Below, in pieces: positions 2,330 through 19,942 of a DNA stretch of 64,000 nt (positions within the stretch are counted from its first letter, which is position 1; every line of letters begins with the position of its first letter). The position numbers were made by a program, and so were the translations under genes. The DNA lies in contig JAKMFL010000051.1 of NCBI GenBank assembly GCA_022425485.1, positions 1 through 64,000 on the forward strand, read 5' to 3'. The notes beneath the pieces are model-generated. The model saw nothing but the letters and a program-made list of their open reading frames with translations. It was not told the origin of the DNA and made no database searches. This DNA is from Alphaproteobacteria bacterium (GTDB lineage Bacteria; Pseudomonadota; Alphaproteobacteria; Puniceispirillales; Puniceispirillaceae).

Positions 2330-2470
2330 TCAGCTTTTGCGTTTTTCATGAAGATAGTCAAGCAGATAATACCCCGCCATAACAATAACGAACCAAGCCA
2401 CAAACTGGTCTTTTAGATGATCTGAAGCCATCTCGTCAGTCTTCTGCTTTTCTGTTTGCGGCGCGCGCAT
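2330..2470 (-). CDS. 46-residue single-span membrane protein, translationally coupled to msrC
   Basis: The ATG at 2470 overlaps the TAA stop of the msrC gene by one base (TAATG), a classic coupling arrangement. The product has a charged N-terminal part (residues 1-22), one hydrophobic segment around residues 23-40 (FVAWFVIVMAGYYLLDYL) and a basic tail (HEKRKS). This is the layout of a small inner-membrane protein with its tail on the cytoplasmic side. No family is recognised. Coupling, clean membrane segment and position inside a compact operon support it being real; the short length is the main doubt. Confidence 0.55.
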   Translation of the reverse strand: MRAPQTEKQKTDEMASDHLKDQFVAWFVIVMAGYYLLDYLHEKRKS

Positions 2471-2955
2471 TATACCCCCACCGCTTGATAGGCTTCTGCA
2501 TTATAAATAGGGATAAGAATATCCACCATCATTGTAGTTAGCGCGTCTATATCTGCGGGCGTGAAAAAGTCCGGCTGATCAGAATCAATATCCAACACCG
2601 CACGCACCATGCCTGCATCATCTATTACAGGAATCACCAATTCTGAGCGTGTGCTGGAGGCGCAGGCAATATGCCCATCAAACTGTTCTACATCTGCAAC
2701 CAGCTGCGGTGAAGCGGTGCGTACCGCTGCCCCGCATACCCCTTTATCAAAAGGGATAGTAAGGCAACCATGCCCGCCTTGATAGGGGCCAATTTTCATT
2801 AAATTTGGGGAAACGACTCGGTAAAAACCCACCCAGTCAAAACCGTCAAAGCTGGCAAATAATTCTTGTGCAAGGGTAGCCATTAAAGCAATTTCATCGC
2901 GCTCACCCTGACAAATTGCACGTAAACGCATCCCTACTTCCCGGTAATCGCGCAT
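2470..2955 (-). CDS. msrC: Free methionine-(R)-sulfoxide reductase (GAF domain, fRMsr/MsrC type)
   Basis: A single GAF domain of 161 residues. Reduces free L-methionine-(R)-sulfoxide in the cytoplasm using thioredoxin. The three family cysteines are present: Cys64 in GHGCLTIP, Cys74 in GVCGAAV and Cys98 in GHIACAS, matching the E. coli Cys84/Cys94/Cys118 arrangement, and the substrate-pocket motif SELVIPV follows. These separate it from sensory GAF proteins. The start overlaps the stop of the upstream gene by one base (TAATG), and its own stop overlaps the next start in the same way. It is therefore a middle gene of a tightly coupled operon. Confidence 0.88.
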   Translation of the reverse strand: MRDYREVGMRLRAICQGERDEIALMATLAQELFASFDGFDWVGFYRVVSPNLMKIGPYQGGHGCLTIPFDKGVCGAAVRTASPQLVADVEQFDGHIACASSTRSELVIPVIDDAGMVRAVLDIDSDQPDFFTPADIDALTTMMVDILIPIYNAEAYQAVGV

Positions 2956-3329
2956 TATTTCTGCCTTGCTTCTTGCTGTGCTAAAAAATTTGGATTGGTG
3001 ATGACTAACTTTGCTTTAACATACTCTAATAAATATCTTTGTAACAATGCACTGTCTGGCAACTTATGCTCACCTTTGCGCAAGTTTGTTGCAAGTTCAG
3101 CACAACTTTGTCCAGTTGCCAAGGCTAGCTTATCCTCCGGGCTATCTGCATTCGCTAAATTTTGCCGCAAGATATTCAATGCGCGGCGCATCATGGATTT
3201 ACGAAAATTTTGCTCTGGCGGCAAATTGTCGGCTAGATGAGTGTTAAATTCGGCTTCTATCGCCGCCGCTAGCCCAGCCAGTATTCTCATATCATTTGTG
3301 TTTTTATTTTTATTTTTCACCTCGGTCAT
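2955..3329 (-). CDS. DUF6285-like small protein, probable partner of the adjacent kinase (LvaB-like)
   Basis: 124 residues, mostly helical, without catalytic motifs. A lysine/asparagine-rich start (KNKNKNTND) precedes a core of amphipathic helices, e.g. residues 44-58 and 67-90. It overlaps the kinase stop by four bases (ATGA) and is followed by msrC with a one-base overlap. Known context: in the Pseudomonas putida levulinate (lva) operon a small protein, LvaB, is needed with the kinase LvaA. Its size and the gene order kinase-small protein beside an acyl-CoA dehydrogenase match what is seen here. Function as a kinase accessory subunit is inference from that context. Confidence 0.65.
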   Translation of the reverse strand: MTEVKNKNKNTNDMRILAGLAAAIEAEFNTHLADNLPPEQNFRKSMMRRALNILRQNLANADSPEDKLALATGQSCAELATNLRKGEHKLPDSALLQRYLLEYVKAKLVITNPNFLAQQEARQK

Positions 3330-4429
3330 GCCCTAAAATCCTGCCATCTATCTTCTTCTATTTCGTTCATCAGGCTAAGCATATGATATTCCATTTCTGC
3401 AACCATCTGACCAGACAGCGCCAATTGCAAGGCAGGTTCTTGCCCACTATCATTGCGGCGAGCCTGTTGCAGGGCAATGACCGCCCATCTTATCTCTGCC
3501 ATCACCTGCCAGCATCCCAAAGCAGATAGATTAATTGTCTGCCCTGATGCCGTTTCATAAGCTTCACGGAACGGGGCAAAAGGCGCTAAGCCGCCGACGC
3601 TTAAATGGTCATTGCCAAAACGCCAGCATCTAGCGCAAAGCCATCCAATATCTTCATGGCTATCACTAAATCCAGCAAACTCCCAATCCAGAAGCGCCGT
3701 CATTTTTCCCGCTTCAATTAAAAAATTTCCAGCCCTGAAATCACGGTGACACAAAACAGGTTCTGCCCCTGTTTGCCAGATATCCATCCTGTCTTCCAAC
3801 CAGTTTAGGGCAAATTCTAGAACTGGCTGAGAGGCGCCGAGCAGGTCTAAATAGCCGCGCATTTGCGATAATATATGCGCTTGTGGATTGGGTTTTGGCT
3901 GGCCGAGGCGCTGGGCTAATTCTGCTGTGGGCAGGCTTTTATGCAGACGCGCCATTTCTGTGCCAAGCTGACGTGCAAGTGCCGGAGAGCCATGTGCAAA
4001 GGCTGGCAGGCGAGCTAGCTTATGCGCTTGTGCTTGGCCTGCCATTGCCTCCATTATAAAAAAGGCGTTGCCAATTACCTGTTCATCCTCACATAAACAG
4101 ATAGGTGTTGGCGCACTCACCCCATTAGCAAAAGCATGCGAGAGTACGGCAAATTCCATCACCCGGCTATTGGAAACGCTAACACAAGAAGGGGCATCTT
4201 TACGTAATACCCATTTTTGTACCCCATCATATTTTCCGCCATTAATCTGTAGGTTTAAAGACCAGTTTTCCTGAATAGCGCCACCAGAAAGCGCATGAAT
4301 ATCTGTTATTGAAACCTGCTTTGCCTCAAACTTATCTGCCAGATATCGGCTGAGTTTTTCAGGACTGAACGGTACGTCTAGCAACACATCAGGCACCCCA
4401 ATGCCAATAATCGCTGCCTTGTGTGTCAT
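3326..4429 (-). CDS. APH-family kinase, probable 4-hydroxyacyl-CoA kinase (LvaA / ACAD10-11 kinase-like)
   Basis: Aminoglycoside-phosphotransferase fold. The Brenner motif HRDFRAGNF and the metal motif ALLDWEFAGFSD are visible, along with an N-terminal ATP-binding part (LSGGAIQENWSL). Proteins of this family next to ACAD11-like dehydrogenases phosphorylate the hydroxyl of 4-hydroxyacyl-CoA thioesters, and the dehydrogenase partner then removes the phosphate. The immediate neighbours here are such a dehydrogenase and a DUF6285-like protein, so this role is favoured over antibiotic resistance. The ATG at 4429 gives a 41-bp overlap with the dehydrogenase. In-frame GTG codons near 4395 and 4386 would give almost no overlap and are possible true starts. 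Confidence 0.8.
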   Translation of the reverse strand: MTHKAAIIGIGVPDVLLDVPFSPEKLSRYLADKFEAKQVSITDIHALSGGAIQENWSLNLQINGGKYDGVQKWVLRKDAPSCVSVSNSRVMEFAVLSHAFANGVSAPTPICLCEDEQVIGNAFFIMEAMAGQAQAHKLARLPAFAHGSPALARQLGTEMARLHKSLPTAELAQRLGQPKPNPQAHILSQMRGYLDLLGASQPVLEFALNWLEDRMDIWQTGAEPVLCHRDFRAGNFLIEAGKMTALLDWEFAGFSDSHEDIGWLCARCWRFGNDHLSVGGLAPFAPFREAYETASGQTINLSALGCWQVMAEIRWAVIALQQARRNDSGQEPALQLALSGQMVAEMEYHMLSLMNEIEEDRWQDFRA

Positions 4430-5588
4430 AATGCCGTGCCAGCACCATCTTATGCACCTCATCCGCACCATCTACCAGACGCGCCTGACGGGCATAGCGA
4501 TAAATCCATTCTAGCGGCGTATCTTTGGAATAGCCGCGCGCACCATTTAACTGGATGGCGGTATCCACAACCTTATGCAAGGTATTAGCGACATGAATTT
4601 TTGCTGAGGAAATTTCTTTGCGCGCAAAACTGCCTTGATCAAGGCACCATGCCGCATGCATCACCAGCAATCGCCCAATTTGTATATCATGAGCTAGCTC
4701 GCCCATCATAATTTGCACAGATTCCCTATCTGCTAGCCGCACACCAAATCCGTGCCGATGGGCAGTATATTCTGCGGCTATTTCCATACACCGCTTGGCC
4801 AACCCCAGCCAGCGCATGCAATGTGTTAGACGGGCTGGCCCTAGACGAATCTGTGTTACCTTCAGCCCATCACCAATTTCCAACAATCTGTTTTCATCTG
4901 AAATTTCCAGCCCATCAAAAACTAGTTCACAATGCCCGCCATGCTCTTCGGGGCCCATAATCGGAATGCGTCGTTCTATGTGCCAGCCGGGCTGGTCTTT
5001 ATGAAACAGAAAAGCCGTCAGACCCTTTCGTGTATCATCGGACGTGCGCGCAACAAGAATAAAATGTGCAGCTTCTTCCGCGCCAGTGATATACCATTTA
5101 CGCCCATTGATGACCCATTTATCGCCTTTGGGTATAGCCGTAGTAAGCATCATAGAGGGGTCGGAGCCGCTACCTGGTGCCGGTTCTGTCATAGCAAAGC
5201 TAGAGCGCACCTCTCCATCAATAAGCGGCTGTAGGAACCAATCCTGCTGCGCCTTCGTCCCAATTTTGGATAGCAAGTTGATATTGCCATCATCCGGGGC
5301 GGCACAATTCAAAACCGCCGGCCCAAATATAGACCGGTTAGCTTCTTCATATAAAGCTGCCCAGCCGCGCACAGGCAAACCCATACCGCCGCGCAGGATA
5401 GGGGCTTGCGGCGCCCACAAACCTGCCTCTTTTGCCTTAAGCCTTACTTTTTCTAGGACAGGAAGAGCGATATTTTCATGTGCATCATAATTCGCCGCAT
5501 CTGCTTCAAGCGGCAGCACATTTTCTGCAATGAACGCTTTTGTCTTTATCCGCAGAGCTTCAAATTCTGCTTCAAGGGTAAAATCCAT
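4389..5588 (-). CDS. Acyl-CoA dehydrogenase of the ACAD11/LvaC type
   Basis: FAD flavoenzyme of 399 residues with the full acyl-CoA dehydrogenase domain order: N-terminal helical, central beta domain with the flavin signature FAMTEPAPGSGSDP, and C-terminal helical domain. The C-terminal RLVDGADEVHKMVLARHY is the ACAD11-like version of this motif. Paired with an APH kinase and a DUF6285-like protein, it would act on phosphorylated 4-hydroxyacyl-CoA and yield an enoyl-CoA (inference from the Lva and ACAD10/11 systems). The ATG at 5588 was chosen because it begins the conserved MDFTLEAEFEALR. A longer frame to 5657 adds residues that do not resemble the family. First gene of the operon. Confidence 0.85.
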   Translation of the reverse strand: MDFTLEAEFEALRIKTKAFIAENVLPLEADAANYDAHENIALPVLEKVRLKAKEAGLWAPQAPILRGGMGLPVRGWAALYEEANRSIFGPAVLNCAAPDDGNINLLSKIGTKAQQDWFLQPLIDGEVRSSFAMTEPAPGSGSDPSMMLTTAIPKGDKWVINGRKWYITGAEEAAHFILVARTSDDTRKGLTAFLFHKDQPGWHIERRIPIMGPEEHGGHCELVFDGLEISDENRLLEIGDGLKVTQIRLGPARLTHCMRWLGLAKRCMEIAAEYTAHRHGFGVRLADRESVQIMMGELAHDIQIGRLLVMHAAWCLDQGSFARKEISSAKIHVANTLHKVVDTAIQLNGARGYSKDTPLEWIYRYARQARLVDGADEVHKMVLARHYDTQGSDYWHWGA

Positions 5589-5789: not shown

Positions 5790-6302
5790 ATGGAAAAAGA
5801 TAATGAAAAACACATGCCAGTTGACCAGCTAAACAAGACTATTGGTGTGCTGGCACGCAGAGAAACCGAAGCGCGGCTTATGGCGCCCCTGATAGAAGCG
5901 CTATCGAAAGCTTTTGGGCGTGAGGAAGTACTGGCGGTTATCCGCGATACAGTTATTAAAATTGCGCATGATCAAGGGGCGGCATTAGCAAAAGAATATG
6001 GTACCAGCTCAGACGCTTTCCTTGAAACCTTATCTTTCTGGCGTCAGGATGGTGCATTGGAAATAGATATTCTGAGCCATACTGAGGAACAGCTGGATTT
6101 TAATGTCACGCGGTGCCGCTATGCAGAGATGTACAAAGCGCTAGGGATGGAAGAATACGGGGCGGTTTTATCATGTAACCGCGATTTGGCGTTAATAGAA
6201 GGGTTTGATGAAGGGGTTAAACTTGAGCGTGAGCAAACCATTATGGGCGGTGCCAGCTGTTGTACGTTCCGCTATGATTTCAGCAATGCTGATAAAAGCT
6301 AA
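5790..6302 (+). CDS. L-2-amino-thiazoline-4-carboxylic acid hydrolase-like protein
   Basis: 170 residues. The layout matches the ATC-hydrolase family (Pfam PF14196): a helical N-terminal half, then FWRQDGALEIDIL, then DFNVTRCRYAEMYKALG, and a cysteine-containing end (MGGASCCTFRYDF). The family takes its name from the enzyme that opens 2-aminothiazoline-4-carboxylate to N-carbamoylcysteine, but most members are uncharacterised, so the substrate here is open. The conserved Cys in TRCRYAEM and the final Cys-Cys pair are the obvious candidates for catalytic or metal roles. It is a single plus-strand gene convergent with the BKACE gene, with adjacent stop codons. Confidence 0.75.
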   Translation: MEKDNEKHMPVDQLNKTIGVLARRETEARLMAPLIEALSKAFGREEVLAVIRDTVIKIAHDQGAALAKEYGTSSDAFLETLSFWRQDGALEIDILSHTEEQLDFNVTRCRYAEMYKALGMEEYGAVLSCNRDLALIEGFDEGVKLEREQTIMGGASCCTFRYDFSNADKS

Positions 6303-7229
6303 CTAGAAGCCGACCCTGTCCGCACCTTTTAGCTGCAACATCTCACGCGCCTCATCTGGGCTGGCAATTTCCAGCCCCATACCTTCGATAAGACCGCGAA
6401 CACGCGTCACCTGCTCAGCATTTGATTTTGCCAGCTGTTTTGGCCCACCCCAAAGGCTGTCTTCTAGACCAACACGCACATTGCCGCCCATGCCTGCTGC
6501 CATAGCGGCGATACGCATCTGATGCCGGCCAGCCCCCAACACAGACCAGCGATAGTCAGAACCAAACAGCCTATCTGCGGTGCGCTTCATATGGATAACA
6601 TCTTCTTCATGGGTGCCGATGCCGCCTAGAATTCCAAAAACAGATTGCACAAAAAAGGGCGGTTTTACGATGCCTCTATCCGCAAAATGGGCAAGCGTGT
6701 AGAGATGTCCAATATCATAACATTCGATCTCAAATCGCGTTTGATTTTCCGCACATGTGGTCAAGATATATTCAATATCTTCAAAGGTATTTTTGAAAAT
6801 TAGGCTAGTAGAGTTTGCCAGATAGGGCTCTTCCCAATCATGGTTAAATTCCTTGAAGCGCTCTAGCATTGGATATAAGCCGAAATTCATCGACCCCATA
6901 TTTAGAGAGGCCACTTCTGGGCGAAAGGTTTCTGCTGGACGCACCCTTTCTTGCACGCTCATGGTTGGCGCCCCACCTGTCGTGATATTAACCACAGCAT
7001 TACTAGCCTGTTTCACGCGTTGCAAAATCGGTGCGAACGCTTCAGGTGACTGGTCAGGACGGCCAGTTTCCGGGTCTCTTGCGTGCACATGCACACACGC
7101 CGCCCCTGCCTCAGCCGCGCCAATAGCGGCATCTGCAATTTCTTGCGGCGTAACGGGCAAATAGGGAGACATGGAAGGGGTGTGAATAGCCCCGGTTACC
7201 GCACAAGTAATAATAACTTTGTTTGCCAT
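6303..7229 (-). CDS. Beta-keto acid cleavage enzyme (BKACE, Kce family)
   Basis: 308-residue TIM-barrel enzyme of the DUF849/BKACE family, which condenses a beta-keto acid with acetyl-CoA and splits it to acetoacetate plus a new acyl-CoA. The zinc-binding His47 and His49 are in CVHVHARDP, and other family blocks are visible (NITTGGAP, GLEDSLWG). The substrate differs between members (3-keto-5-aminohexanoate, dehydrocarnitine and others). The next gene upstream is a lambda-crystallin-type 3-hydroxy acid dehydrogenase, which would make a 3-keto acid for this enzyme; this pairing is inference. No aminohexanoate or carnitine genes are close by. Confidence 0.85.
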   Translation of the reverse strand: MANKVIITCAVTGAIHTPSMSPYLPVTPQEIADAAIGAAEAGAACVHVHARDPETGRPDQSPEAFAPILQRVKQASNAVVNITTGGAPTMSVQERVRPAETFRPEVASLNMGSMNFGLYPMLERFKEFNHDWEEPYLANSTSLIFKNTFEDIEYILTTCAENQTRFEIECYDIGHLYTLAHFADRGIVKPPFFVQSVFGILGGIGTHEEDVIHMKRTADRLFGSDYRWSVLGAGRHQMRIAAMAAGMGGNVRVGLEDSLWGGPKQLAKSNAEQVTRVRGLIEGMGLEIASPDEAREMLQLKGADRVGF

Positions 7230-7254: not shown

Positions 7255-8187
7255 TTAATTCTTATCTTGTTCATTCTTATGATAAGTCAAGGCAGCTAGT
7301 CGCTCATTACGCCAGTTTGATCGGCCAGCAATATCTGATGCTGGCAAGCGCCCTTCCCAGTTTTCTGTTATTTTTTGTGTCCAGCCCTTATCAAATACAT
7401 CTGCGCCAGCGGGGGTTTTTGCCATCTTGGCAAATACCGGGCCATAGCGGGAAAAATAATCTTCGGCCCCTTCAGGCGCATTGAGCTCAATTGTCTCAAA
7501 TGGGCCCATAAATGCCCAACGCAAACCGAGCCCGTCTTTAACTGTTTTATCTAAATCTTCTACCGAAATAATACCCTCACCTACCAGCTTTAGCGCTTCG
7601 GCCAATAATGCGCCCTGCAAACGGTTCAGCACAAACCCATCTATTTCTTTATGCACACGCACCGGCACCTGACCAATAGATGCATATATATCATAGGCCT
7701 TTATTAAAACCGCTTCCTTTGTCCAAGACGCGCCACATACCTCTACCAGCGGTACCAAATGCGGCGGATTCACTGGATGGCCAATCAGAACGCGTTCCCG
7801 CCCAGCAAGCTGTTCAGAAAAGAGCGAGGCGACAATCGAAGAGGTCGAAGAGGCTATCGGCACATCTAGCGGTACAAGCCTGTCAAGTTCAGCAAAAATA
7901 TCTATTTTGGCATCCAGCCTTTCTGGGCCATTTTCCTGCACAAAGTCAGCCCCGCTTAAGGCTTCCTGTAAATCATTACTATAGGCGATAGCGTTTAACA
8001 GTGTATCTGCATTCTCTGCCAGCTTATGGCGCACCAAAATTTGGCTTTCTTCCTGCAGTTTTTCGGGTAATCCTGCCAGCAATTCTGCACTAATATCATA
8101 CATCTTTACCTGCCAACCTGCTCTGGCAAATACAAGCGCCCATGCCCTGCCGATTAGCCCAGAGCCGATTATTGCAACAACAGACAT
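7255..8187 (-). CDS. 3-hydroxy acid dehydrogenase, lambda-crystallin / L-gulonate 3-dehydrogenase-like
   Basis: NAD-dependent dehydrogenase of the 3-hydroxyacyl-CoA dehydrogenase superfamily, 310 residues from the ATG at 8187. The Rossmann motif is IIGSGLIGRAWA. The catalytic His sits in IGHPVNPPHLVPLVEV and the family block DGFVLNRLQGAL follows. These blocks, and a C-terminal GLRWAFMGPFETIELNA, resemble lambda-crystallin and L-gulonate 3-dehydrogenase more than fatty-acid HADs; L-carnitine dehydrogenase is a second possibility. It lies 25 bp upstream of the BKACE gene and probably feeds it a 3-keto acid. A GTG at 8217 would add ten residues. Confidence 0.8.
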   Translation of the reverse strand: MSVVAIIGSGLIGRAWALVFARAGWQVKMYDISAELLAGLPEKLQEESQILVRHKLAENADTLLNAIAYSNDLQEALSGADFVQENGPERLDAKIDIFAELDRLVPLDVPIASSTSSIVASLFSEQLAGRERVLIGHPVNPPHLVPLVEVCGASWTKEAVLIKAYDIYASIGQVPVRVHKEIDGFVLNRLQGALLAEALKLVGEGIISVEDLDKTVKDGLGLRWAFMGPFETIELNAPEGAEDYFSRYGPVFAKMAKTPAGADVFDKGWTQKITENWEGRLPASDIAGRSNWRNERLAALTYHKNEQDKN

Positions 8188-8328: not shown

Positions 8329-9105
8329 ATGGATTTAGCGCTTCAGGGCTTACGCGTTTTTGTCAGTGCGGGGGCTAGCGGCATTGGCCTTGCTATTGTG
8401 GAAAGTTTCCTGACGGAGGGCGCGGAAATTGCCACCTGTGATGTGGATGAGGCCAGTCTGAATGCGCTGGCGCAAAAATATCCCAACATCCATACCTATC
8501 TTTGTGATGTGTCTGACAGTGGCGCTATTCAGGGCGTTATCCATAGCGCGGCGGCACAAATGGGTGGACTTGACTGCCTTGTAAATAATGCTGGCATTGC
8601 TGGGCCTACGGCGAAGATCGAAGAGATTGATGATGCGGCATGGCAACGCTGCCTTGATATTTGTCTTAATGGGCAATTTTATTGTGTCAAAGCCGCGCTC
8701 AGCTATCTACGGGAAAGTAGTAATCCATCCATTGTCAATTTATCGTCTGCCGCAGGCAAATATGGCTTTGCCTTGCGCACCCCTTACGCCGCCGCGAAAT
8801 GGGGCGTTATCGGCTTGACCAAATCCCTGTCGATAGAATTAGGAGAGAATAATATCAGGGTCAATGCGATACTACCCGGGCTAGTTGCAGGTGAGAGGCA
8901 GCGCCGCGTAATGGAAGCCAAATCCCAGCAGCTCGGCGTACCGTTTGCTGAAATAGAAGCCGCAGCGTTTTCTTTTTCCTCGATGAAGGATTATGTAACA
9001 GCCCAACATCTAGCAGACCAGATCCTGTTTCTGGCGAGCCCGCGCGGCAAAATGATAAGCGGCCAAGCCTTATCGATTGACGGCGACACCAAAATGTTGC
9101 TTTAG
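8329..9105 (+). CDS. Short-chain dehydrogenase/reductase
   Basis: Classical SDR of 258 residues. The cofactor motif is SAGASGIGLAI with Asp-containing ATCDVDE after the second strand, which suggests NAD(H) preference. NNAG follows, then the catalytic Ser in VNLSSAAGKYG and Tyr/Lys in TPYAAAKWG. The substrate is unknown. The gene is divergent from the dehydrogenase at 8187 across a 141-bp spacer and convergent with the HupE-like gene. It may share control with the BKACE pair, but nothing in the sequence proves that. Confidence 0.85.
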   Translation: MDLALQGLRVFVSAGASGIGLAIVESFLTEGAEIATCDVDEASLNALAQKYPNIHTYLCDVSDSGAIQGVIHSAAAQMGGLDCLVNNAGIAGPTAKIEEIDDAAWQRCLDICLNGQFYCVKAALSYLRESSNPSIVNLSSAAGKYGFALRTPYAAAKWGVIGLTKSLSIELGENNIRVNAILPGLVAGERQRRVMEAKSQQLGVPFAEIEAAAFSFSSMKDYVTAQHLADQILFLASPRGKMISGQALSIDGDTKMLL

Positions 9106-11271: not shown

Positions 11272-12165
11272 CTATCGCGCCTTGCTGAGCGAGAGTTCAC
11301 GAAACCAAATAATCATCCCAGAACTAACAATAACCAGCGCACCAATAATAGTCCATCTATCTGGCAAATGTTCAAACACCAGATAGCTCCAGCCGGTCAA
11401 AAACAGAATAAAGGAATAGCCAAACGGGCTCAGCACGCTAGCTGGGGCATAATTATGCGCAATGGTTAAAACCTGATGTCCAGCCCAGCCAAAAAACCCT
11501 AGCGATATTAAAATGGCCCATTCAAAAAGACTGGCAGGTGCTTGCCAGAAATAAATTGCAAATGGCAGCAAACAGACACTCCCTACCATCCCAGAGTGAA
11601 ATTGCAGGACATCCGTGCTGACCAAACCAGAGAGATGACGCGTTAAAATCGAATAAAGCGAAAAACAGAAAGCCCCACTTAAAGAAAGAAATACAGCGAT
11701 GTGAAAACTTTCATCGAACGGGCGAATGGCAATAGCCACCCCAGCAAAACCCAGCATAATTGCTGACCACCGATAGATACCTACCCGCTCGCCCAGCAAT
11801 GGCCATGAAAGCAAACAGATAAAAATAGGGGCTGAAAAAAGAATAGTAGACGTTAGGGTTAGGGGCAGCCAGCGAATAGCAAAGAAATTAAAAACGGTGG
11901 AGGCCATCAGTAATGCCCCGCGTAACATGACCAACTTTAAATGCGGGCTGGTGTAACGGGACAGGGTAAAGCCGCCCCTGCCGACCAGCGCGGTGGAAAT
12001 AGCAAAATGCCCAATATATCGCATAAAGGCTAATTGCGCTGAATGAAGACCCAAAAGGGCAAGCCATTTTGCGCCCGCATCAATGAAAGAAAACAACGCA
12101 TAAGCGGCAAGCATCAATAAAATACCAAAGCGCACATTATCCTGATATTGGCCAGCAATTGCCAT
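11272..12165 (-). CDS. EamA/DMT-superfamily permease
   Basis: 297 residues with about ten membrane segments arranged as two EamA repeats (residues about 15-140 and 155-285), the standard length. Each repeat ends with a GLAGVAI-like block (LGFAGVAIAIRP in the first). Such permeases export metabolites or take up amino acids and sugars; the substrate cannot be read. The gene follows the PhyH gene on the same strand with 94 bp between. It is the first of five DMT permeases in this window. Confidence 0.85.
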   Translation of the reverse strand: MAIAGQYQDNVRFGILLMLAAYALFSFIDAGAKWLALLGLHSAQLAFMRYIGHFAISTALVGRGGFTLSRYTSPHLKLVMLRGALLMASTVFNFFAIRWLPLTLTSTILFSAPIFICLLSWPLLGERVGIYRWSAIMLGFAGVAIAIRPFDESFHIAVFLSLSGAFCFSLYSILTRHLSGLVSTDVLQFHSGMVGSVCLLPFAIYFWQAPASLFEWAILISLGFFGWAGHQVLTIAHNYAPASVLSPFGYSFILFLTGWSYLVFEHLPDRWTIIGALVIVSSGMIIWFRELSLSKAR

Positions 12166-12259
12166 TATTACCCACGCTCTTTCTTGCCAAACCGCTTCGG
12201 GCCGACAGCAGCTAGATAGCCCTTATTGAAAGAAAGGCACTATCTGTAAAAATTTTGAC

Positions 12260-13156
12260 TTAAATACCAGCCTGCTTTAGCTGCTTTTGAATTTCATAGA
12301 TGGAGCCCTGCTGCGCTGGTTGTGGTTGCGGAATACGAACAGGGGTTGCAGATACGCGCGGGGCAATAGTCGGTTCACCGCACAACATCCGCTGATTATA
12401 TTCTTCGATATCGTTAAATTTGGTCATGCCGCCCATAATAGGAAAGGCGTCTGCTGCCATCATTTCAATAAATAACAAGCGGCGCGGGCGGTCTGAAATA
12501 TTCTCAGCAGACCCATGCACAATCCGGCCATGATGAATTGAAACTGAACCTGCAGGCCCATTTAATTCAACTGCCTTATCTGGGTCTAAACCATTATCTT
12601 CTAAAGACAGGCCGCCTGCAAAAACACCCTCTACATGATGGTCATAAATGGGACCTTTATGAGAGCCAGCGAACACCTTTAAGGGGCCATTTTCAGTGCG
12701 CATATCATCGATAATCACTGCTAATGCCAGCACATCATCATTAGTATGCGGGTAAAATGCAAAATCTTGATGCCAGTCTATTGGGGCGCCATAGCCCGCA
12801 GATTTCATATTCAATTTTGTTGTATGCAGGCGAATATGCGCGCCGATTAAATCGCGTATTGGGGCTAAGATCGCATCTGAATACATCAGATCGCGCACAA
12901 TATCAGATTGGGTATGCGGCAATTTAATACGCCGAATACGCGGCTCGTCTGGTCTGTGGCTATCTTCCAAATCAAGCTTTTCATCTGATTCGGTCATGCC
13001 ATAGGCGGTGTGCTCAATACGCGCTATCTCACCACGCAACGCTTCAATAACAGACATATCCAGATGGTTTTCCAGCAACAGATACCCTTGCTCGTTATAA
13101 AAATTAGCCTGCGTGGTTGTCAGACATTCAAGCTCTGGCTTTTTATCTATGTCCAT
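12260..13156 (-). CDS. Phytanoyl-CoA dioxygenase (PhyH) family oxygenase
   Basis: Fe(II)/2-oxoglutarate oxygenase of 298 residues. The iron triad is His129 and Asp131 in DWHQDFAFYPH and the distal His214 in GRIVHGSAEN, and an arginine a few residues on (SDRPRR) is suited to bind 2-oxoglutarate. The substrate is unknown; PhyH relatives hydroxylate ectoine, acyl-CoAs or small organic acids. A GAGGGAG ribosome binding site precedes the ATG. It is downstream of the UxaA-family dehydratase on the same strand. A second PhyH gene lies about 3 kb away on the same strand, suggesting two hydroxylation steps linked to this cluster. Confidence 0.83.
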   Translation of the reverse strand: MDIDKKPELECLTTTQANFYNEQGYLLLENHLDMSVIEALRGEIARIEHTAYGMTESDEKLDLEDSHRPDEPRIRRIKLPHTQSDIVRDLMYSDAILAPIRDLIGAHIRLHTTKLNMKSAGYGAPIDWHQDFAFYPHTNDDVLALAVIIDDMRTENGPLKVFAGSHKGPIYDHHVEGVFAGGLSLEDNGLDPDKAVELNGPAGSVSIHHGRIVHGSAENISDRPRRLLFIEMMAADAFPIMGGMTKFNDIEEYNQRMLCGEPTIAPRVSATPVRIPQPQPAQQGSIYEIQKQLKQAGI

Positions 13157-13212
13157 TTTTTCAACTCCCTCGTTGCAAATTGCGATGCTGTCCTTCTAGG
13201 GTTTTTAAACCC

Positions 13213-14724
13213 TTACATGGTGGCGCCAATTTGCCACGGAACAAACTCATAATCGCCCAAACCTTGCGCCTCTGATTTTGATTGCTTACCAGAAGCAACA
13301 TCCAGCAATAGCTGATAAATCTCCTGCCCTTTTTCTTCTAAACTCTGGCCTTCTGTTAGCATGGCACCAGCATTGATATCCATATCCTCTATCAGCCTTT
13401 CATACATTTCTGTATTGGTAGCTATCTTTATACAAGGCGAAGGTTTAGAGCCAAAGGCAGAGCCGCGGCCAGTGGTAAAAGCCACCAGATTACAGCCGCT
13501 GGCAATTTGCCCTGTTACCGAAGCTGGGTCATAGCCAGGCGAATCCATGAAAGCAAAGCCCTTTTTATTCACCGGTTCTGCATATTTATAAACGCCGGTT
13601 AGCGGGGTTGTTCCACCCTTCGCAGCCGCACCAAGGGATTTTTCTAAAATTGTGGTGAGCCCACCTTTTTTATTACCCGGACTAGGATTGTTATCCATCG
13701 AGCCTTTATTGCGCTCTGTATAGTCTTCCCACCAGCGTATCAGTCCAACCAATCTCTCGCCGGTTGCTTTATCTGCTGCACGCCTCGTTAATAAATGCTC
13801 TGCACCATAAATCTCAGGTGTTTCTGCCAAAACGCCTGTGCCGCCCTGTGCCACCAATAAATCACACGCATAGCCAAGAGCCGGATTTGCGGTGATACCA
13901 GATAGGGCATCAGAGCCGCCACATTGCAAAGCAACGGTTAATTCAGATACAGGGCAAGGCTCACGCTCGCATTTATTCGCCTCTGGTAACATTTCGCGCA
14001 CCATAGCAATACCCGCTTCAACTGTTTTTGCTAGACCAAAGCTGTCCTGAATATTCATCGCCTTAAAAAGAGGCCCCTGTTTCAGGCCATAAGCTTCTAA
14101 GAGCCAGTCAATTTGGTTCATCTCACAGCCTAAACCTACCATTACAATACCCGCATGGTTTGGATTTCGCGCATAGCCCCACATCACCCGCTGCAAAGCC
14201 TCAAACCCGTCTCCTTGCCCAGCCATGCCGCAGCCTGTGCCATGCACAAATGCCGTCACACCATCTACATTCGGATATTTTGCCATCTCCTCAGGCCCAA
14301 ATGCAGACGCTATCATACGCGCAGCGGTGGCAGAGCAGTTCACAGAGGTCAAGATACCAATATAATTGCGTGTTCCCACCTGACCAGAAGGGCGACGATA
14401 GCCCATGAAGGTATCTATTTTATCCCGAGATACCTGCGCAATAGGGCGCAAATCAGTGGCAAATTCATAATCTAAATCAGTATTACGAAACTCAACATTA
14501 TGCGTGTGAATATGGCTTCCTGCAGCAATATCTTCACAAGCATAGCCAATAATTTGGGCATATTTGCGAACTGCCTCTCCTTTGGCGATAGGGGCAGCAG
14601 CAATTTTATGATTGCGCGGGATAAGCCCAGTGGTCGCAACCCCTTCAATATCCACACCAGCCTCAAGAGTTTGCGTGGCAGTAACAACATTATCTGCTGG
14701 GTCTAGACGAATAAAATCAGCCAT
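13213..14724 (-). CDS. UxaA/GarD-family sugar-acid dehydratase (altronate dehydratase-like)
   Basis: 503 residues, a full-length fusion of an N-terminal SAF domain (about 1-95, ending near SHIHTHNVEF) and a C-terminal catalytic domain of the altronate/galactarate dehydratase family. Conserved blocks include GYRRPSGQVGTRNYI, VNCSATAARMI, HGTGCGM, LQCGGSDALSGITANPALG and SGCNLVAFTTGRGSAFG. Cysteines in these blocks are likely metal or cluster ligands. Known relatives dehydrate altronate, galactarate or, in the split SuyAB form, remove sulfite from sulfolactate; the fused form here favours a sugar acid. Adjacent to a COG4091 gene with 49 bp between and probably co-transcribed. Confidence 0.82.
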   Translation of the reverse strand: MADFIRLDPADNVVTATQTLEAGVDIEGVATTGLIPRNHKIAAAPIAKGEAVRKYAQIIGYACEDIAAGSHIHTHNVEFRNTDLDYEFATDLRPIAQVSRDKIDTFMGYRRPSGQVGTRNYIGILTSVNCSATAARMIASAFGPEEMAKYPNVDGVTAFVHGTGCGMAGQGDGFEALQRVMWGYARNPNHAGIVMVGLGCEMNQIDWLLEAYGLKQGPLFKAMNIQDSFGLAKTVEAGIAMVREMLPEANKCEREPCPVSELTVALQCGGSDALSGITANPALGYACDLLVAQGGTGVLAETPEIYGAEHLLTRRAADKATGERLVGLIRWWEDYTERNKGSMDNNPSPGNKKGGLTTILEKSLGAAAKGGTTPLTGVYKYAEPVNKKGFAFMDSPGYDPASVTGQIASGCNLVAFTTGRGSAFGSKPSPCIKIATNTEMYERLIEDMDINAGAMLTEGQSLEEKGQEIYQLLLDVASGKQSKSEAQGLGDYEFVPWQIGATM

Positions 14725-14773
14725 TGCGGAACTACTTTCTTTAAAATTATGTGTATGTACCTATCGAAAGAAA

Positions 14774-16111
14774 CTAGCCCGCTAATAGAGCTGTCATCTC
14801 TTTACGATAACTTATGATATCTTCTACATCCTCAAGCTCGACATCACTGATGGTCACGGCGCTGTCTTTTTTTATAGGATGTTTTAGTTTTACGTTATGT
14901 GCAAGCCCTATGGGAAGCGCATCTATGCTATGGGATATTCTAGCTGGCAGAGCATTTGCCCATACACAATACCCGCCCTCACCATCCAGCATTTCGCCTG
15001 CTTTTAAATCGCGCTTGGCAGTCGCCACTGCATCGCCGCGCCAGTAGCGCGAACAGCCGGTTGGCTCGTGCCGCAAAACAGCAGAGAGCACGCTGGTATT
15101 GGTCTCAAGCCCGATCATATGAAAAGGCCGCCACATGGAGCCATACCAACCAGAGGGGTCAGTTAGAAGCCCATATTGCTGAAAGCAATCTCTTGTATAG
15201 GCATTCGGGGCTTTGAAGGTAACAAACATTCCAAAACGGATATTATTTATCACCTCACGCCCATCTGGTTCCTGACTAGCGGCAATTTCAACCAGCCCCG
15301 ATTTTGCAAGCCTACCCCCCTCGCTGGCTGGCCTGAAAACAGACGCTAAATCATGCAAGCCTGCGGGATGAAAAGCTAGGCCTGTATCGGGGCAATCAAG
15401 GCCTGTTGCGTTAGCCACTGCAGCCATCTCGATAGCTGCCTTTGTGCCATCAGTAAAAGAGTTATACATCTTTGGATTAAAATCACCTGCCGCGACCTCT
15501 GCCTCTGACCAGCCGAAATAGCCCCATACTGTATCCGGCGTAGAATAACGATATTCAGGTTGAAAATTCATCCCCTTACCTGCGGCAACCAGCTCAAAAC
15601 CATTACTATGTACCCAGTCCACTAATTCGCAAATTGCAGCTGGCTGGTCGCCATACGCCATCGAATAAATGACGCCGCGCTCAGATGCCTTTTTAGCAAT
15701 ATAAGGGCCGCATAGAATATCGGCCTCCACATTTACCATTATTACATGCTTGCCACTTTCGATCGCCTGTAAGGCATGACGTACACCAAATAACGGGTGA
15801 CCCGTCGCCTCAATAATACAATCAATTTCGGAAAAGTTGCACAACGCAGAAACATCGTCAGTAAGCCATGTTTTCCTCGCTGCTATAGCCTCTTTAGCGC
15901 TCGCAGAAAAACAGGTTTTTGTATCCCACCCTACTCTTGCAAAGGCTGTCTTAGCCTTGTCCAAATTCAAATCTGCAACTGCAGCAACATGCAATCCTTT
16001 AACATGCTGAGCTTGGGCTAAAACCATAGAGCCAAACTTCCCCGCCCCAATAAGACCTATGCGCAGGGGTTTATTTTTAGCATATTCTGCTAGCAAGCGG
16101 CTGAGGTTCAT
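14774..16111 (-). CDS. COG4091-type NAD(P)-binding oxidoreductase with C-terminal SAF domain (copy 1)
   Basis: 445 residues. The N-terminal Rossmann fold has IGLIGAGKFGSMVL (residues about 17-30) and the block VNVEADILCGP. A homoserine-dehydrogenase-like middle carries MAYGDQPAAICELVDW. A C-terminal SAF-like segment (about 365-445) contains KRDLKAGEMLDGEGGY. Members of this group are linked to branched or unusual sugar-acid catabolism, but no specific substrate can be claimed. A diverged paralogue sits at 32135. The start codon is reached through three tandem micro-ORFs whose stops and starts overlap, the last overlapping this ATG (ATGA). Upstream on the same strand is a PhyH gene; downstream is the UxaA-family gene. 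Confidence 0.78.
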   Translation of the reverse strand: MNLSRLLAEYAKNKPLRIGLIGAGKFGSMVLAQAQHVKGLHVAAVADLNLDKAKTAFARVGWDTKTCFSASAKEAIAARKTWLTDDVSALCNFSEIDCIIEATGHPLFGVRHALQAIESGKHVIMVNVEADILCGPYIAKKASERGVIYSMAYGDQPAAICELVDWVHSNGFELVAAGKGMNFQPEYRYSTPDTVWGYFGWSEAEVAAGDFNPKMYNSFTDGTKAAIEMAAVANATGLDCPDTGLAFHPAGLHDLASVFRPASEGGRLAKSGLVEIAASQEPDGREVINNIRFGMFVTFKAPNAYTRDCFQQYGLLTDPSGWYGSMWRPFHMIGLETNTSVLSAVLRHEPTGCSRYWRGDAVATAKRDLKAGEMLDGEGGYCVWANALPARISHSIDALPIGLAHNVKLKHPIKKDSAVTISDVELEDVEDIISYRKEMTALLAG

Positions 16112-16168
16112 AGGTTTGTCTTTTTCATTTTCTTACTGGTTCTTTCATTTTCTTGGCGGGTCTTTCAT
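16108..16168 (-). other. Three chained micro-ORFs (7, 7 and 6 codons) leading into the COG4091 gene
   Basis: On the minus strand, ATG 16168 encodes MKDPPRK and its stop overlaps ATG 16148 (ATGA). That ORF encodes MKEPVRK and overlaps ATG 16128 (ATGA). The third encodes MKKTNL and overlaps the COG4091 start at 16111 (ATGA). The peptides are similar because they derive from a 20-bp tandem repeat. Ribosome binding sites are weak (AAGAAA). Whether they are translated is unknown; the geometry would allow relay by termination-reinitiation. Confidence 0.4.
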
Positions 16169-16180
16169 TTTTTTGCGGGG
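16121..16180. repeat. 20-bp tandem repeat, three imperfect copies
   Basis: Copies of a TCTTTCATTTTCTT-type unit with period 20 lie between the COG4091 start and the PhyH stop. The repeat produces the micro-ORF chain described for this spacer. Just beyond it (16174-16193) is a GC-rich inverted repeat around TTTTTAC without a following T-run on the minus strand. Confidence 0.8.
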
Positions 16181-16274
16181 TTTTTACCCGCCGCTAAGGA
16201 CATGCTTCCTCTTATCTTTTGAGACATCACCGCTTAGCCAAAAACATTTAGCAAACGACCCACGCTAGGGCGCA

Positions 16275-17234
16275 TTAGGCGCAAAAAGGGGCATCTGATT
16301 GCCAGCGATGGATGGGAATATGCGGCGCGTTGGATAGCCTGCTGCGTGCCTGCTCCCAGCTATGCCGCCATGCCTGCCAGTCGGTTAACACACCCTCAGG
16401 GTCAGCTTTGCTACGTGCAACAAATTCGGGGAAATGGGCACGCCCCGTTGGCTGACCGGTTCGATTAAAACGAATATCAAAAGACCATCTAAATGAATCT
16501 GTCTGGTTTTCCAGCGATGCATGGGCTGTTAGCGGGTCTAGAATCACAATGCCCCCAGATTTGACCGGCAAAGGCACAACCCTATCCATATCAATAAAGC
16601 CGTCTGCTATAGCGGTCTGGCTTTTAGGGCAATGCGGCAACAGCCCTTGATCTGCTTTTTTAGGCAGGACTTGCAGGCAGCCATTTTCCAATGTTGCATC
16701 TGTTATCGCACACCAAATAGTGACCATATCTGTGTGATCTGCCTCATCATGGGCAACCCCCCTATCCTGATGCCAGTCTGTATGGGCGATATGGGCGCGT
16801 ACCTCATCATCATACAGCTTGCGGGCAGGGGGTTTCAGGCGCACATGCTGAATAGGGTTGGACGTAATTTCTGGCCCTATCAGAGTTTCAACAATATCTA
16901 GGAGTTTTGGTGCGGTCAGAAGGGCAAAAACAGCTGGACCAAAATGCATCGGCGTATCGGCACAGATCTGGTCGCCCGGAAGCGAAATATCCATCGGCTG
17001 AAACCAGTCACAACCCGCATCATAACAGGCCTCTAGCTGGGCAAAGAAATCAGCATCTTTCAGCTTTTTATCAATGCGGCCTTGCGCTATCCAGTCATCC
17101 ACCAAGCTTGCCAGCAATACCTGATATTCTGCCCGCACAGGGTCAAGGATGGTTTCTTGGTCAAAGACATTCTCTACCACCAGATAGCCTTGCTTTTCAA
17201 AGAGCTCTTTTTGCGTATCAGATAGCAATTTCAC
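16275..17234 (-). CDS. Phytanoyl-CoA dioxygenase (PhyH) family oxygenase, second copy
   Basis: About 319 residues. Iron ligands are His155 and Asp157 in TDWHQDRGVAH and His238 in DPLTAHASLEN, followed by an arginine in the strand FRWSFDIRF suited to 2-oxoglutarate binding. It is not a close copy of the other PhyH enzyme; the dioxygenase core is broken by longer loops. The frame is open to ATG 17246, but a GGGAGGGG Shine-Dalgarno lies inside that extension. GTG 17234 (spacing about 5) or TTG 17228 is therefore the likely start. It follows the TRAP operon terminator and precedes the micro-ORF/COG4091 unit. Substrate unknown. Confidence 0.8.
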   Translation of the reverse strand: MKLLSDTQKELFEKQGYLVVENVFDQETILDPVRAEYQVLLASLVDDWIAQGRIDKKLKDADFFAQLEACYDAGCDWFQPMDISLPGDQICADTPMHFGPAVFALLTAPKLLDIVETLIGPEITSNPIQHVRLKPPARKLYDDEVRAHIAHTDWHQDRGVAHDEADHTDMVTIWCAITDATLENGCLQVLPKKADQGLLPHCPKSQTAIADGFIDMDRVVPLPVKSGGIVILDPLTAHASLENQTDSFRWSFDIRFNRTGQPTGRAHFPEFVARSKADPEGVLTDWQAWRHSWEQARSRLSNAPHIPIHRWQSDAPFCA

Positions 17235-17296
17235 TACCCCTCCCATCGCGCTGTCCTATGGATTAAGTAGAAAACAGCCGTTCTGAAATGACAAGA

Positions 17297-17332
17297 TAAA
17301 AAAACCCACCTGCAGGAGATGCCGCAGGTGGG
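17297..17332 (-). terminator. Intrinsic terminator of the TRAP transporter operon
   Basis: A perfect 9-bp stem (CCCACCTGC with GCAGGTGGG) and a 10-nt loop are followed on the minus strand by seven T residues. It lies 39 bp past the dctM stop codon. Confidence 0.92.
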
Positions 17333-17370
17333 AGAAGGTATGTTTAACAACGTAACACTAGTCTTGCGTA

Positions 17371-18969
17371 TTACCCCAAGAATACGGTTACAATTTCTGG
17401 CCAAATCAACAGAACAGATAGCGCTAGAAGCTGGATGCCGATAAAGGGCAAGAAGCCTCTGAAAATATCTGTCAAAGAGATATGTGGCGGGGCAACTGAT
17501 TTCAGATAGAAAGCAGCGGGGCCAAATGGTGGAGATAAGAAAGACACCTGCATATTCATACAGAAGACAACCCCAAACCATACCGCAATATAGCGGGGCT
17601 CAATCGAGCCAAGAAAGCCAATATCTTCGATAGGCAGTTTGCGCACAATCGGCAGGAACACAGGCATAATCAACAGAACAATACCTACCCAATCCATAAA
17701 CATACCCATGATGAGGAAGATCAGCATCATAAACAAGATAACGCCCATTGCTGGCAGGTCATACCCAACGATCAGGTTCGCCACATAGGTTGGCCCCCCT
17801 ACAAGCGTATAGGCCGCAGCAAGTGCCGCCGCACCGATGGTGACCCAAATAATCGTGCCCGTTGATTTCAGGGTTCGCATCACCGAATCCCAGACAATCT
17901 CAAACGTCATTTCGCGCCGAATAAGACCAATAACAAACACCGCAATAACGCCCATACCTGCCGCTTCGGTAATACCCGTAATGCCGCCATAGATAGAGCC
18001 AAGTACCACGCCAATAACAATAGTTGGCGCTATCAGGCCCTTACCCATTTCCCAACCATTTTGCGTGCGCTCTTTGCCAACTACCAGATACATAATGGCA
18101 AGGCAGATGAAAAACGCCGCGCCAATATATGGCATATCCGAGACCATGCCGAGGAAGATAGGGTCTACCCCTTCTTGGATAATATTCTCACCTGTAAGGG
18201 TAAAGAACACTGCCCGCAAGAACAGAACGCCAGTAATCCAAAGGCCAAAACGGGCAAGGAAACCAAGGAACATCAAAGATTTCTCAGAAGTTGGCGGATC
18301 GCTCGGATCGGGTTCTGGCAGAGGGGCATCCTGAGGGCGAAGCCTCGTGATGACCATAATATAGATGATGAAGAAAGAGGCCAACATAAAGCCCGGCAAG
18401 AATGAAGCCGTAAATAGCGCCTTAATAGAGGTCTCTGTAATCAGACCATAGAAAATCAAAACGATAGAGGGCGGGATCATTGTCCCTAGCGAGCCTGAGG
18501 CACAAATCGTACCAATGGCTAGGTTCTGATTATAGCCCAGACGCAACATTTGTGGCAGAGCAATCAAGCCAAGCAAAACCACCTCACCGCCGATAATCCC
18601 TGACATCGCAGCCATAATCACGGCCATGATAGAGGTCACAATCGCGATACCGCCGCGTGTCCGGTTGAGCCAGATATTTAGCGAGGAATACATATCGCGC
18701 GCAATGCCCGATCGCTCCAATAACGCCGCCATAAAAATAAATAAGGGCACCGATATCAGAACGTAATTCGTCATCTGCCTGTAGACTGCCTGACTAAGCA
18801 CGGAAAACGGCCCACGACCAAAATCCATAAACATCAAATCAGGGCCAAATTTTAACACCAAAGCAACAACAGCTAGAAACGCTGAGGCAAAACCAAGCGG
18901 CATGCCAATCGCCAATAATACAAACATCCCCCCCAAGAGGATAAGGCTAAGGGTACCTACATCAACCAT
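17371..18969 (-). CDS. dctM: TRAP transporter large permease subunit (DctM)
   Basis: Twelve-plus-segment integral membrane subunit that couples solute import to sodium or proton flow. At 532 residues it is longer than the usual 430 because of a charged cytoplasmic loop around residues 210-235 (RLRPQDAPLPEPDPSDPP) and an extra hydrophobic block up to about 300. Conserved blocks include LERSGIARDMY, GIIGGEVVLLGLIALP, SLGTMIPPSIVLIFYG and ITGITEAAGMGV. The ATG directly follows the dctQ stop (TAAATG), so the two are coupled. The terminator lies just after. Confidence 0.93.
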   Translation of the reverse strand: MVDVGTLSLILLGGMFVLLAIGMPLGFASAFLAVVALVLKFGPDLMFMDFGRGPFSVLSQAVYRQMTNYVLISVPLFIFMAALLERSGIARDMYSSLNIWLNRTRGGIAIVTSIMAVIMAAMSGIIGGEVVLLGLIALPQMLRLGYNQNLAIGTICASGSLGTMIPPSIVLIFYGLITETSIKALFTASFLPGFMLASFFIIYIMVITRLRPQDAPLPEPDPSDPPTSEKSLMFLGFLARFGLWITGVLFLRAVFFTLTGENIIQEGVDPIFLGMVSDMPYIGAAFFICLAIMYLVVGKERTQNGWEMGKGLIAPTIVIGVVLGSIYGGITGITEAAGMGVIAVFVIGLIRREMTFEIVWDSVMRTLKSTGTIIWVTIGAAALAAAYTLVGGPTYVANLIVGYDLPAMGVILFMMLIFLIMGMFMDWVGIVLLIMPVFLPIVRKLPIEDIGFLGSIEPRYIAVWFGVVFCMNMQVSFLSPPFGPAAFYLKSVAPPHISLTDIFRGFLPFIGIQLLALSVLLIWPEIVTVFLG

Positions 18970-19782
18970 TTACGTCCGCTCCTCAAGCGTTTTGCGGATA
19001 TTCTCAATCTCAGTCTGATCAATCTCATCCGCAGGCGTATGTTTCACATCTTCTTTGTTCCAATCTGCAATGAGGTTGGAAATCGCCTGAATACATACCA
19101 GCGTAATGATAATCAGAATCGCCGGCTTTACTGTTGCAGGGATGGGGGGATCCCATGCCGTGCCAAACCGCTCAAACCGCTCAAATTTATCTACGGCTTC
19201 GTCAAACGCGCCCCAGATAAGGCAGAATGTAAAAATCGTTATCAGCAATACAGAGACCGAATCAGCGAGCTTTTTAGCCCAACGCGGAAACATCTCATAA
19301 ATAATGAAAATTCGAATATGACTGCGCTGTTGCATCGCATAAAGCCCCGCCAGCAAGAACAGGAAGGAAGCAATCCACAACGTCATTTCATTCGCCCAAA
19401 GGGTGGGGCGGGCAAACACATAGCGTGATATCACCTCATAGAGCATCGCAATTTCAATGAAAATGATAGACATCATTGCGATTCGCGAAGATACCAGCGA
19501 AACAATATCAAAAAATCCTGCCTTTTCAGGCTCAATCGCCCCTTTATTATCTGAAAGATATATGCCGGCAATTAATAGTGAGAACGCAAGCAGAAGCATA
19601 AATGTCCGCGCCAACAGTCCACCTTCTGGGCGCAACATTTCATGTACACCCACTCCACTATCTAAAAATGCTTTATTAAAGACCAGGACAAAGAAAACAA
19701 ACAAAGTTAAGCATGCTGATATTGTGGCTGTCTGTCTTACTGGCTTGCGAAACCTTCCTAGCCAAACGCTGTCGTCACTCAT
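18970..19782 (-). CDS. dctQ: TRAP transporter small permease subunit (DctQ)
   Basis: About 270 residues, long for DctQ (usual 160-200). An N-terminal extension contains two additional hydrophobic segments (about residues 15-40 and 65-85) before the standard four-segment DctQ domain, whose core is WANEMTLWIASFLFLLAGLYAM and HIRI. Start chosen at ATG 19782, preceded by AGGGGTGGA; the frame also opens at 19803. A small in-frame 9-bp duplication gives FERFER near the C-terminal part. Works with DctM; stop and dctM start are adjacent. Confidence 0.88.
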   Translation of the reverse strand: MSDDSVWLGRFRKPVRQTATISACLTLFVFFVLVFNKAFLDSGVGVHEMLRPEGGLLARTFMLLLAFSLLIAGIYLSDNKGAIEPEKAGFFDIVSLVSSRIAMMSIIFIEIAMLYEVISRYVFARPTLWANEMTLWIASFLFLLAGLYAMQQRSHIRIFIIYEMFPRWAKKLADSVSVLLITIFTFCLIWGAFDEAVDKFERFERFGTAWDPPIPATVKPAILIIITLVCIQAISNLIADWNKEDVKHTPADEIDQTEIENIRKTLEERT

Positions 19783-19872
19783 TATTCCACCCCTAATCTT
19801 CATTTAGAAAATTACTTTTATTTTTTTTTACGACTTTAAATTTTATTAAAAAAATCTGTTTTGTATAAGTGT

Positions 19873-19912
19873 GTAAAAACGAGAGAGCAAAAAAACTTTC
19901 TGCTCTCTCGTT
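19873..19912 (-). terminator. Hairpin between dctP and dctQ (attenuator-like terminator)
   Basis: A perfect 12-bp stem, AACGAGAGAGCA (19878-19889) with TGCTCTCTCGTT (19901-19912), is followed on the minus strand by a short T-run. It is placed after the binding-protein gene and before the permease genes, where partial termination or mRNA protection would give more binding protein than permease. Confidence 0.8.
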
Positions 19913-19942
19913 CGTTTATAGCCTTATCAAGACATCAAAACC

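Follow-up and report, generated by a model that had tools for sequence, protein, structure and literature searches.

A predicted 4-hydroxyacyl-CoA dehydroxylation module beside BKACE and HCDH genes in a SAR116 alphaproteobacterium

We describe here a minus-strand run of five genes (positions 2330-5588) in a 64,000-nucleotide stretch of contig JAKMFL010000051.1, referred to below as the window, whose source organism, judged from its closest named relatives, is a SAR116 alphaproteobacterium. The first three genes encode an acyl-CoA dehydrogenase (ACAD), an APH-fold kinase and a small DUF6285 protein, and this trio is a real, widespread and well-conserved module of a known kind in a new genomic setting. 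By analogy with characterized relatives, the trio probably dehydroxylates 4-hydroxyacyl-CoA and thereby feeds beta-oxidation, a reading to which we assign a probability of roughly three in four. The kinase, together with a bound helical DUF6285 subunit, would phosphorylate the 4-hydroxyl at the expense of ATP, and the ACAD would then eliminate the phosphate, using FAD without net oxidation, to yield a 2-enoyl-CoA for beta-oxidation; both the kinase and the elimination reactions are carried over from those relatives. We favor this function because of the gene order, the family membership of the products, the intact kinase and HCMR-D residues and the existence of natural DUF6285-kinase fusions. 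The three genes are as follows, positions being named after the Pseudomonas putida lva operon (statements attributed to PMC articles throughout refer to excerpts of those articles).

4389-5588, minus strand: ACAD, 399 residues (Pfam Acyl-CoA_dh_1, 124.9 bits)
3326-4429, minus strand: APH-fold kinase in the LvaA position, 367 residues (Pfam APH, 112.9 bits)
2955-3329, minus strand: small helical DUF6285 protein in the LvaB position, 124 residues (Pfam, 29.8 bits)

Active-site residues of the ACAD and the kinase-DUF6285 pair

The initial annotation had described the trio as an LvaC-LvaA-LvaB-like module that matches ACAD10/11 biochemistry, and this description stands: the profile searches assigned both APH and DUF6285, and the ACAD carries the ACAD10/11 signature. 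The coordinates likewise confirm that the ACAD, APH and DUF6285-like genes overlap their neighbors by 41, 4 and 1 bases, as claimed, and give a further 1-base overlap between msrC, the gene that follows, and a gene for a 46-residue protein. An in-frame ATG at 4471 offers an alternative start for the kinase (381 residues).

The top Protein Data Bank (PDB) match of the window ACAD is 4hr3, named merely as a putative acyl-CoA dehydrogenase, and its closest annotated relatives there are the ACAD11 structures 2wbi and 8v3u. Residues R248, R253, HCMR 256-259 and D373 of the window ACAD align with R626, R631, HCMR 634-637 and D753 of mouse ACAD11, the chain numbering in the alignment running one below that of the paper. 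In mouse ACAD11, the 4-phosphate is reported to be held by R626, H634 and R637, residues that conventional ACADs lack and whose replacement ablates activity (PMC12440821). Across all 86 ACAD sequences of the assembled set, the R..R..HCMR..D signature was present in every ACAD of the window type (51/51), of a second type (25/25) and of ACAD11 (2/2), and in none of the two ordinary FadE proteins from the loci or of six paralogues from the window's own genome. Window-type ACADs are at least 61% identical to the window ACAD, those of the second type 40-44% and ACAD11 34%; the label 'second type' (or 'LvaC-type') reflects gene context and score rather than a comparison with the KT2440 sequence. The own genome yields eight ACAD matches, among which the window ACAD alone is of the HCMR type, the other seven being at most 31% identical to it; by blastp, it scores 205 bits against ACAD11, versus 46-86 bits for its paralogues. 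With the phosphate-contacting R, H and R and the catalytic D all present, the window ACAD belongs, as judged from its residues, to the ACAD10/11-LvaC kind.

This assignment holds in the broad sense. LvaC of P. putida KT2440 shares 56-62% identity with ACAD11/ACAD10 (PMC11342911), a level that none of the trio ACADs compared reaches; we therefore do not class the window ACAD as a narrow-sense LvaC orthologue, since it is 34% identical to ACAD11 and stands apart from it in the tree. In a tree of 69 ACADs from which near-duplicates had been removed, the window sequence is placed with SAR116 and Paracoccaceae sequences in a group of 12 rows (support 100/100), which is nested in one of 41 rows (90/94). 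Second-type ACADs make up a group of 20 rows (88/99), and ACAD11 joins lone Pseudomonas ACADs (100/100); the outgroup branches were very long and gave a long-branch-join warning, so that only tight groups were used. Pseudomonas loci with a PrpR-type regulator are not equated here with the published lva cluster, their ACADs being only 32-37% identical to ACAD11. Three Pseudomonas genomes hold ACADs that share 59-60% identity with mouse ACAD11; in the two whose surroundings were examined, such an ACAD with the HCMR motif (L262:6228-7472 and L263:6353-7582) has no kinase gene nearby.

The separate position of the window ACAD in the tree could mean that the trio applies the same kinase-then-eliminate logic to another position or substrate (for example 3- or 5-hydroxyacyl-CoA, or a hydroxyacyl-CoA derived from a sugar acid). 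Also consistent with this are an upstream galactarate-dehydratase-like gene, PhyH oxygenases and a TRAP transporter, and the fact that APH-fold kinases act on other hydroxyls, for example the 25-hydroxy steroid kinase, the top match by fold (PMC8449060). However, the window ACAD retains every residue known to contact the phosphate of 4-phosphoacyl-CoA, and we consider a different substrate unlikely.

The kinase has the features of an LvaAB kinase, i.e. the APH fold, the HxD...N and DWE motifs (HRDFRAGN at 228 and LDWEF at 247, both intact) and a small partner gene. The partner passes the gathering score of Pfam PF19802 (DUF6285) narrowly (29.8 vs 28.1 bits). Nevertheless, its genus alignment matched a profile of 38 small proteins that occupy the same position in the surveyed loci, all 38 being DUF6285 by Pfam, with an hhalign probability of 98.8 and an E value of 5e-17, and the narrow call therefore holds. 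DUF6285 follows the kinase or is fused to it in 83 of 84 loci (two of which, L192 and L193, are duplicate records of L116 and L117). In the exception, L191 (7451-8899, genome G012, same family), the ACAD is accompanied by a long kinase open reading frame (ORF) and no recognizable DUF6285, with LysE directly next.

In six loci from Rhodospirillales-type genomes (L147, L154, L160, L168, L179 and L188), the two form a single protein, with DUF6285 attached C-terminally to the kinase. One such fusion gave a predicted structure of high confidence in both parts (mean pLDDT 91.1, pTM 0.89); as one body, it agrees with a study that reports LvaB to be pulled down with LvaA and lvaA, lvaB and lvaC to be essential (PMC6692424). 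The DUF6285 protein is thus a probable kinase subunit. Modeled on its own, DUF6285 gave no match to a solved structure at E <=0.001 (best E 1.9), a result that favors neither a known nor a new fold, and the ACAD11 kinase was not among the best 50 fold matches listed for the kinase part of the fused relative.

The excerpted report gives no lvaB for the levulinate cluster of P. citronellolis (PMC6692424). A histidine phosphatase gene, which is a feature of that cluster, occurs in 18 of the 25 second-type loci, and Pseudomonas loci with the same gene content (e.g. L135, L137 and L186) have a DUF6285 ORF directly after the kinase. By analogy, lvaB of P. citronellolis may have been overlooked.

Partners of the trio in related loci and in the genus

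To place the trio among its relatives, we rely on 80 named loci, the best 80 of 285 relatives, which were collected with two DNA patterns derived from peptide motifs of the window kinase and are hence biased. Five belong to the genus of the window, 42 have a window-type ACAD in other taxa, 25 have an ACAD of the second type and 8 have no ACAD in the stretch. Among the genus loci, the fifth (L110) stops inside the DUF6285 gene and shares one genome with L111. An AMP ligase was found in 26/42 window-type, 11/25 second-type and 3/8 no-ACAD loci, and an SDR scoring above 100 bits in 34/42, 17/25 and 6/8, respectively; neither was found in the five genus loci. By contrast, BKACE (beta-keto acid cleavage enzyme) and HCDH (3-hydroxyacid/3-hydroxyacyl-CoA dehydrogenase, above 200 bits) were each present in 5/5 genus loci and in 0/42, 0/25 and 0/8 of the others. 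The module elsewhere is therefore usually accompanied by LvaE-/LvaD-like partners, and in the genus by BKACE and HCDH. The frequent company of a ligase and an SDR, which would take the LvaE and LvaD roles, also supports the proposed function of the trio.

No match over threshold to the ligase, LvaR or the LvaD-like SDR was obtained in the five genus records, and none was seen among the window-locus ORFs examined. The lva operon proper, in which LvaD, LvaE and LvaR accompany the trio, is thus not what is found at the window locus, in agreement with the earlier remark that the other lva genes are lacking. The genes found on the far side of the ACAD are the following.

5790-6302, plus strand: ATC_hydrolase-family ORF (Pfam), between BKACE and ACAD
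6303-7229, minus strand: BKACE (NF053538, 550.7 bits, cut-off 430)
7255-8184, minus strand: HCDH (NF004783, 388.8 bits, cut-off 347)
8329-9105, plus strand: SDR oxidoreductase (Pfam), divergent from HCDH-BKACE and kept in all genus loci

The SDR at 8329 is a divergent, generic one. HCDH and BKACE adjoin the trio in all five genus records, in G007 and in the window, so that the module is not 'stand-alone', as it had first been called. The BKACE protein is 97% identical to that of L120, yet only 65 of 147 fourfold-degenerate sites agree, which points to very strong purifying selection on BKACE compared with its neighbors. Further upstream (11272-20977) lie genes of a sugar-acid style (galactarate-dehydratase-like, two PhyH oxygenases, TRAP transporter), partly retained beside the trio in the genus.

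It is possible that HCDH and BKACE supply the acyl-CoA in the genus in place of a CoA ligase, BKACE being the CoA-entry step. HCDH, BKACE and the trio would then form one ligase-free pathway, an extension of the dehydroxylation reading rather than a competitor: HCDH would oxidize a free 3-hydroxy acid, BKACE would use acetyl-CoA to give acetoacetate and a 4-hydroxyacyl-CoA, and the trio would dehydroxylate the latter. In addition to the constant adjacency, the gap from BKACE to the ACAD is just 60-61 bases on the same strand in G003, G005 and G007, and a ligase was found in 0/5 genus records vs 26/42 window-type loci elsewhere. An exchange of the same kind has been proposed for deoxyribonate, which some bacteria would degrade with a dehydrogenase and BKACE, and another with a CoA synthetase and a thiolase (PMC6365646). 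On the other hand, BKACE often occurs in the order independently of the trio (of 24 BKACE loci examined outside the genus, none carries the trio and 12 have an HCDH match above 150 bits), the NCBIfam name of the window BKACE refers to 3,5-dioxohexanoate and does not itself predict 4-hydroxyacyl-CoA, and BKACE and the ACAD of the window have an opposite-strand ORF between them. We therefore regard the ligase-free pathway as tentative. A more specific version is doubtful: starting from a free 3,6-dihydroxy-type acid, HCDH and BKACE would form 4-hydroxyacyl-CoA directly through acyl exchange with acetyl-CoA, the trio would dehydroxylate this product, and in the genus msrC would lie on the same transcript.

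Some observations weigh against 4-hydroxyacyl-CoA dehydroxylation as we propose it. The window ACAD, at just 34% identity to ACAD11, falls outside the close LvaC/ACAD11/ACAD10 subgroup; 16 of the 42 window-type loci have no ligase in the stretch; and the opposite-strand ORF at 5790-6302, which is missing from three genus relatives, parts BKACE from the ACAD in the window, so that the two need not share a transcript.

msrC, the 46-residue protein and gene order in the genus

As stated in the initial annotation, msrC and a 46-residue ORF extend the minus-strand run of the trio, and an exporter gene follows.

2470-2955, minus strand: GAF-type msrC, 161 residues (Pfam GAF_2, 44.3 bits)
2330-2470, minus strand: 46-residue protein with one hydrophobic helix
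1667-2293, minus strand: LysE-type exporter (Pfam), 36 bases after the 46-residue gene and found in 4/6 intact genus loci

The msrC product matches PDB 1vhm and 3ksf (E 3.6e-23 and 7.8e-27, respectively). An alignment of seven genus sequences singles out C64, C74, C98 and E105, with cysteine spacings of 10 and 24, which we take to be the three conserved cysteines and the substrate-binding glutamate of the family. With the GAF fold, the three cysteines and the glutamate, the product is, by sequence, an ordinary free methionine-R-sulfoxide reductase. A separate MsrB-family gene is also present in the genome.

The five-gene order is kept in 6/6 genus genomes with an intact locus (window included), the set comprising eight genomes, in two of which (G004 and G006) the locus is broken at msrC by contig ends. 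As the fourfold-degenerate sites of the ACAD, kinase and HCDH genes agree at only about one quarter to one third in the three most distant relatives, i.e. are near saturation, the arrangement must be old, and the conserved order is more than chance. In G001, the cluster occurs a second time as a split copy located at contig ends (L007, L008 and L110), which is either a duplicate or the product of a mixed assembly. A promoter scan was uninformative (9 sites vs 11.4 expected in shuffles).

It had been suggested that the trio, msrC and the 46-residue protein act as a single unit to deal with both lipid-peroxidation products and oxidative damage. The overlapping genes and their retention despite near-saturated fourfold sites fit this idea, and msrC may share the transcript of the trio in the genus; moreover, mammalian ACAD10/11 act on 4-hydroxy acids, which are possible lipid-peroxidation products (PMC11342911). 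However, retention of neighbors is usual in these genomes: in a synteny control, 51 of the 60 window ORFs of at least 100 residues were matched in the regions compared from G007 or G003, and the retention of msrC is therefore background gene order rather than something special. Outside the genus, the association disappears. Together, msrC and the 46-residue gene were found in 4/5 genus loci and in 0/75 of the other named loci, the sister loci having a ligase and an SDR instead; msrC was not found within about 1.5 kb of any of 30 class-wide DUF6285 loci, nor were trio genes or the 46-residue gene within about 1.5 kb of any of 14 msrC loci of other genera. The survey and the synteny control thus weaken the proposed coupling to lipid peroxidation via msrC, which finds no support other than co-location within one genus, and a single functional unit appears very improbable. 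The msrC link does extend beyond this genome, so that the condition initially set for its refutation does not apply, yet it is confined to one SAR116 genus, and the placement of msrC is a habit of that genus, not a proven partnership with the trio.

The 46-residue protein has a conserved core (DQFVAWF) and no match in Pfam or NCBIfam. Its family also occurs outside the genus, in 17 genomes; in none of these is the trio or msrC nearby, and in 5 of the 17 the gene stands beside LysE. Coupling of the 46-residue protein to the trio, initially put forward, was accordingly rejected. Its designation as a membrane protein is also not quite exact, its hydrophobic stretch being borderline (best 19-residue Kyte-Doolittle mean 1.46).

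Significance and comparison with known systems

If our reading is true, the trio strips the hydroxyl from 4-hydroxy fatty acids for use as fuel, and the predicted 4-hydroxy-acid dehydroxylation module extends to marine SAR116 bacteria. DUF6285, on which our literature search found no paper, gains a candidate role as a subunit of hydroxyacyl-CoA kinases, backed by the six natural fusions, and R..HCMR..D provides a short signature to pick out phosphate-eliminating ACADs in genomes. A further, testable question raised by the neighborhood is whether CoA entry can be catalyzed by BKACE instead of a CoA ligase.

Among the closest known systems is the P. putida lva operon, in which LvaA, LvaB and LvaC are likewise a kinase, a small protein and an HCMR-type ACAD in one operon, a likeness drawn from gene content and published descriptions. 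Unlike in that operon, the window gene order is C-A-B, HCDH and BKACE stand alongside, and no LvaD, LvaE or LvaR homologue was found. DUF6285 also holds the LvaB position in loci with a PrpR-type sigma-54 regulator, an SDR and an AMP ligase (L122), although the window ACAD falls in a different tree group from these PrpR-associated loci. Compared with the free methionine-R-sulfoxide reductases 1vhm and 3ksf, the window msrC differs notably just in its place beside the trio. The Sterolibacterium 25-hydroxy steroid kinase (9fsg and 9ft5), whose fold best matches the kinase part of a fused relative (Z 25.9-26.4), phosphorylates a hydroxyl that is subsequently eliminated; its substrate is a steroid, and the excerpt mentions neither a DUF6285 partner nor an HCMR ACAD (PMC8449060). 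Finally, in contrast to mammalian ACAD10/ACAD11, the window domains are on separate genes, the ACAD is 34% identical to ACAD11 and the kinase has a DUF6285 partner, none being mentioned for ACAD10/11 in the excerpts of PMC12440821 and PMC11342911; the same R..HCMR..D active site and the same kinase and ACAD roles nevertheless link the mammalian enzymes to the window trio.

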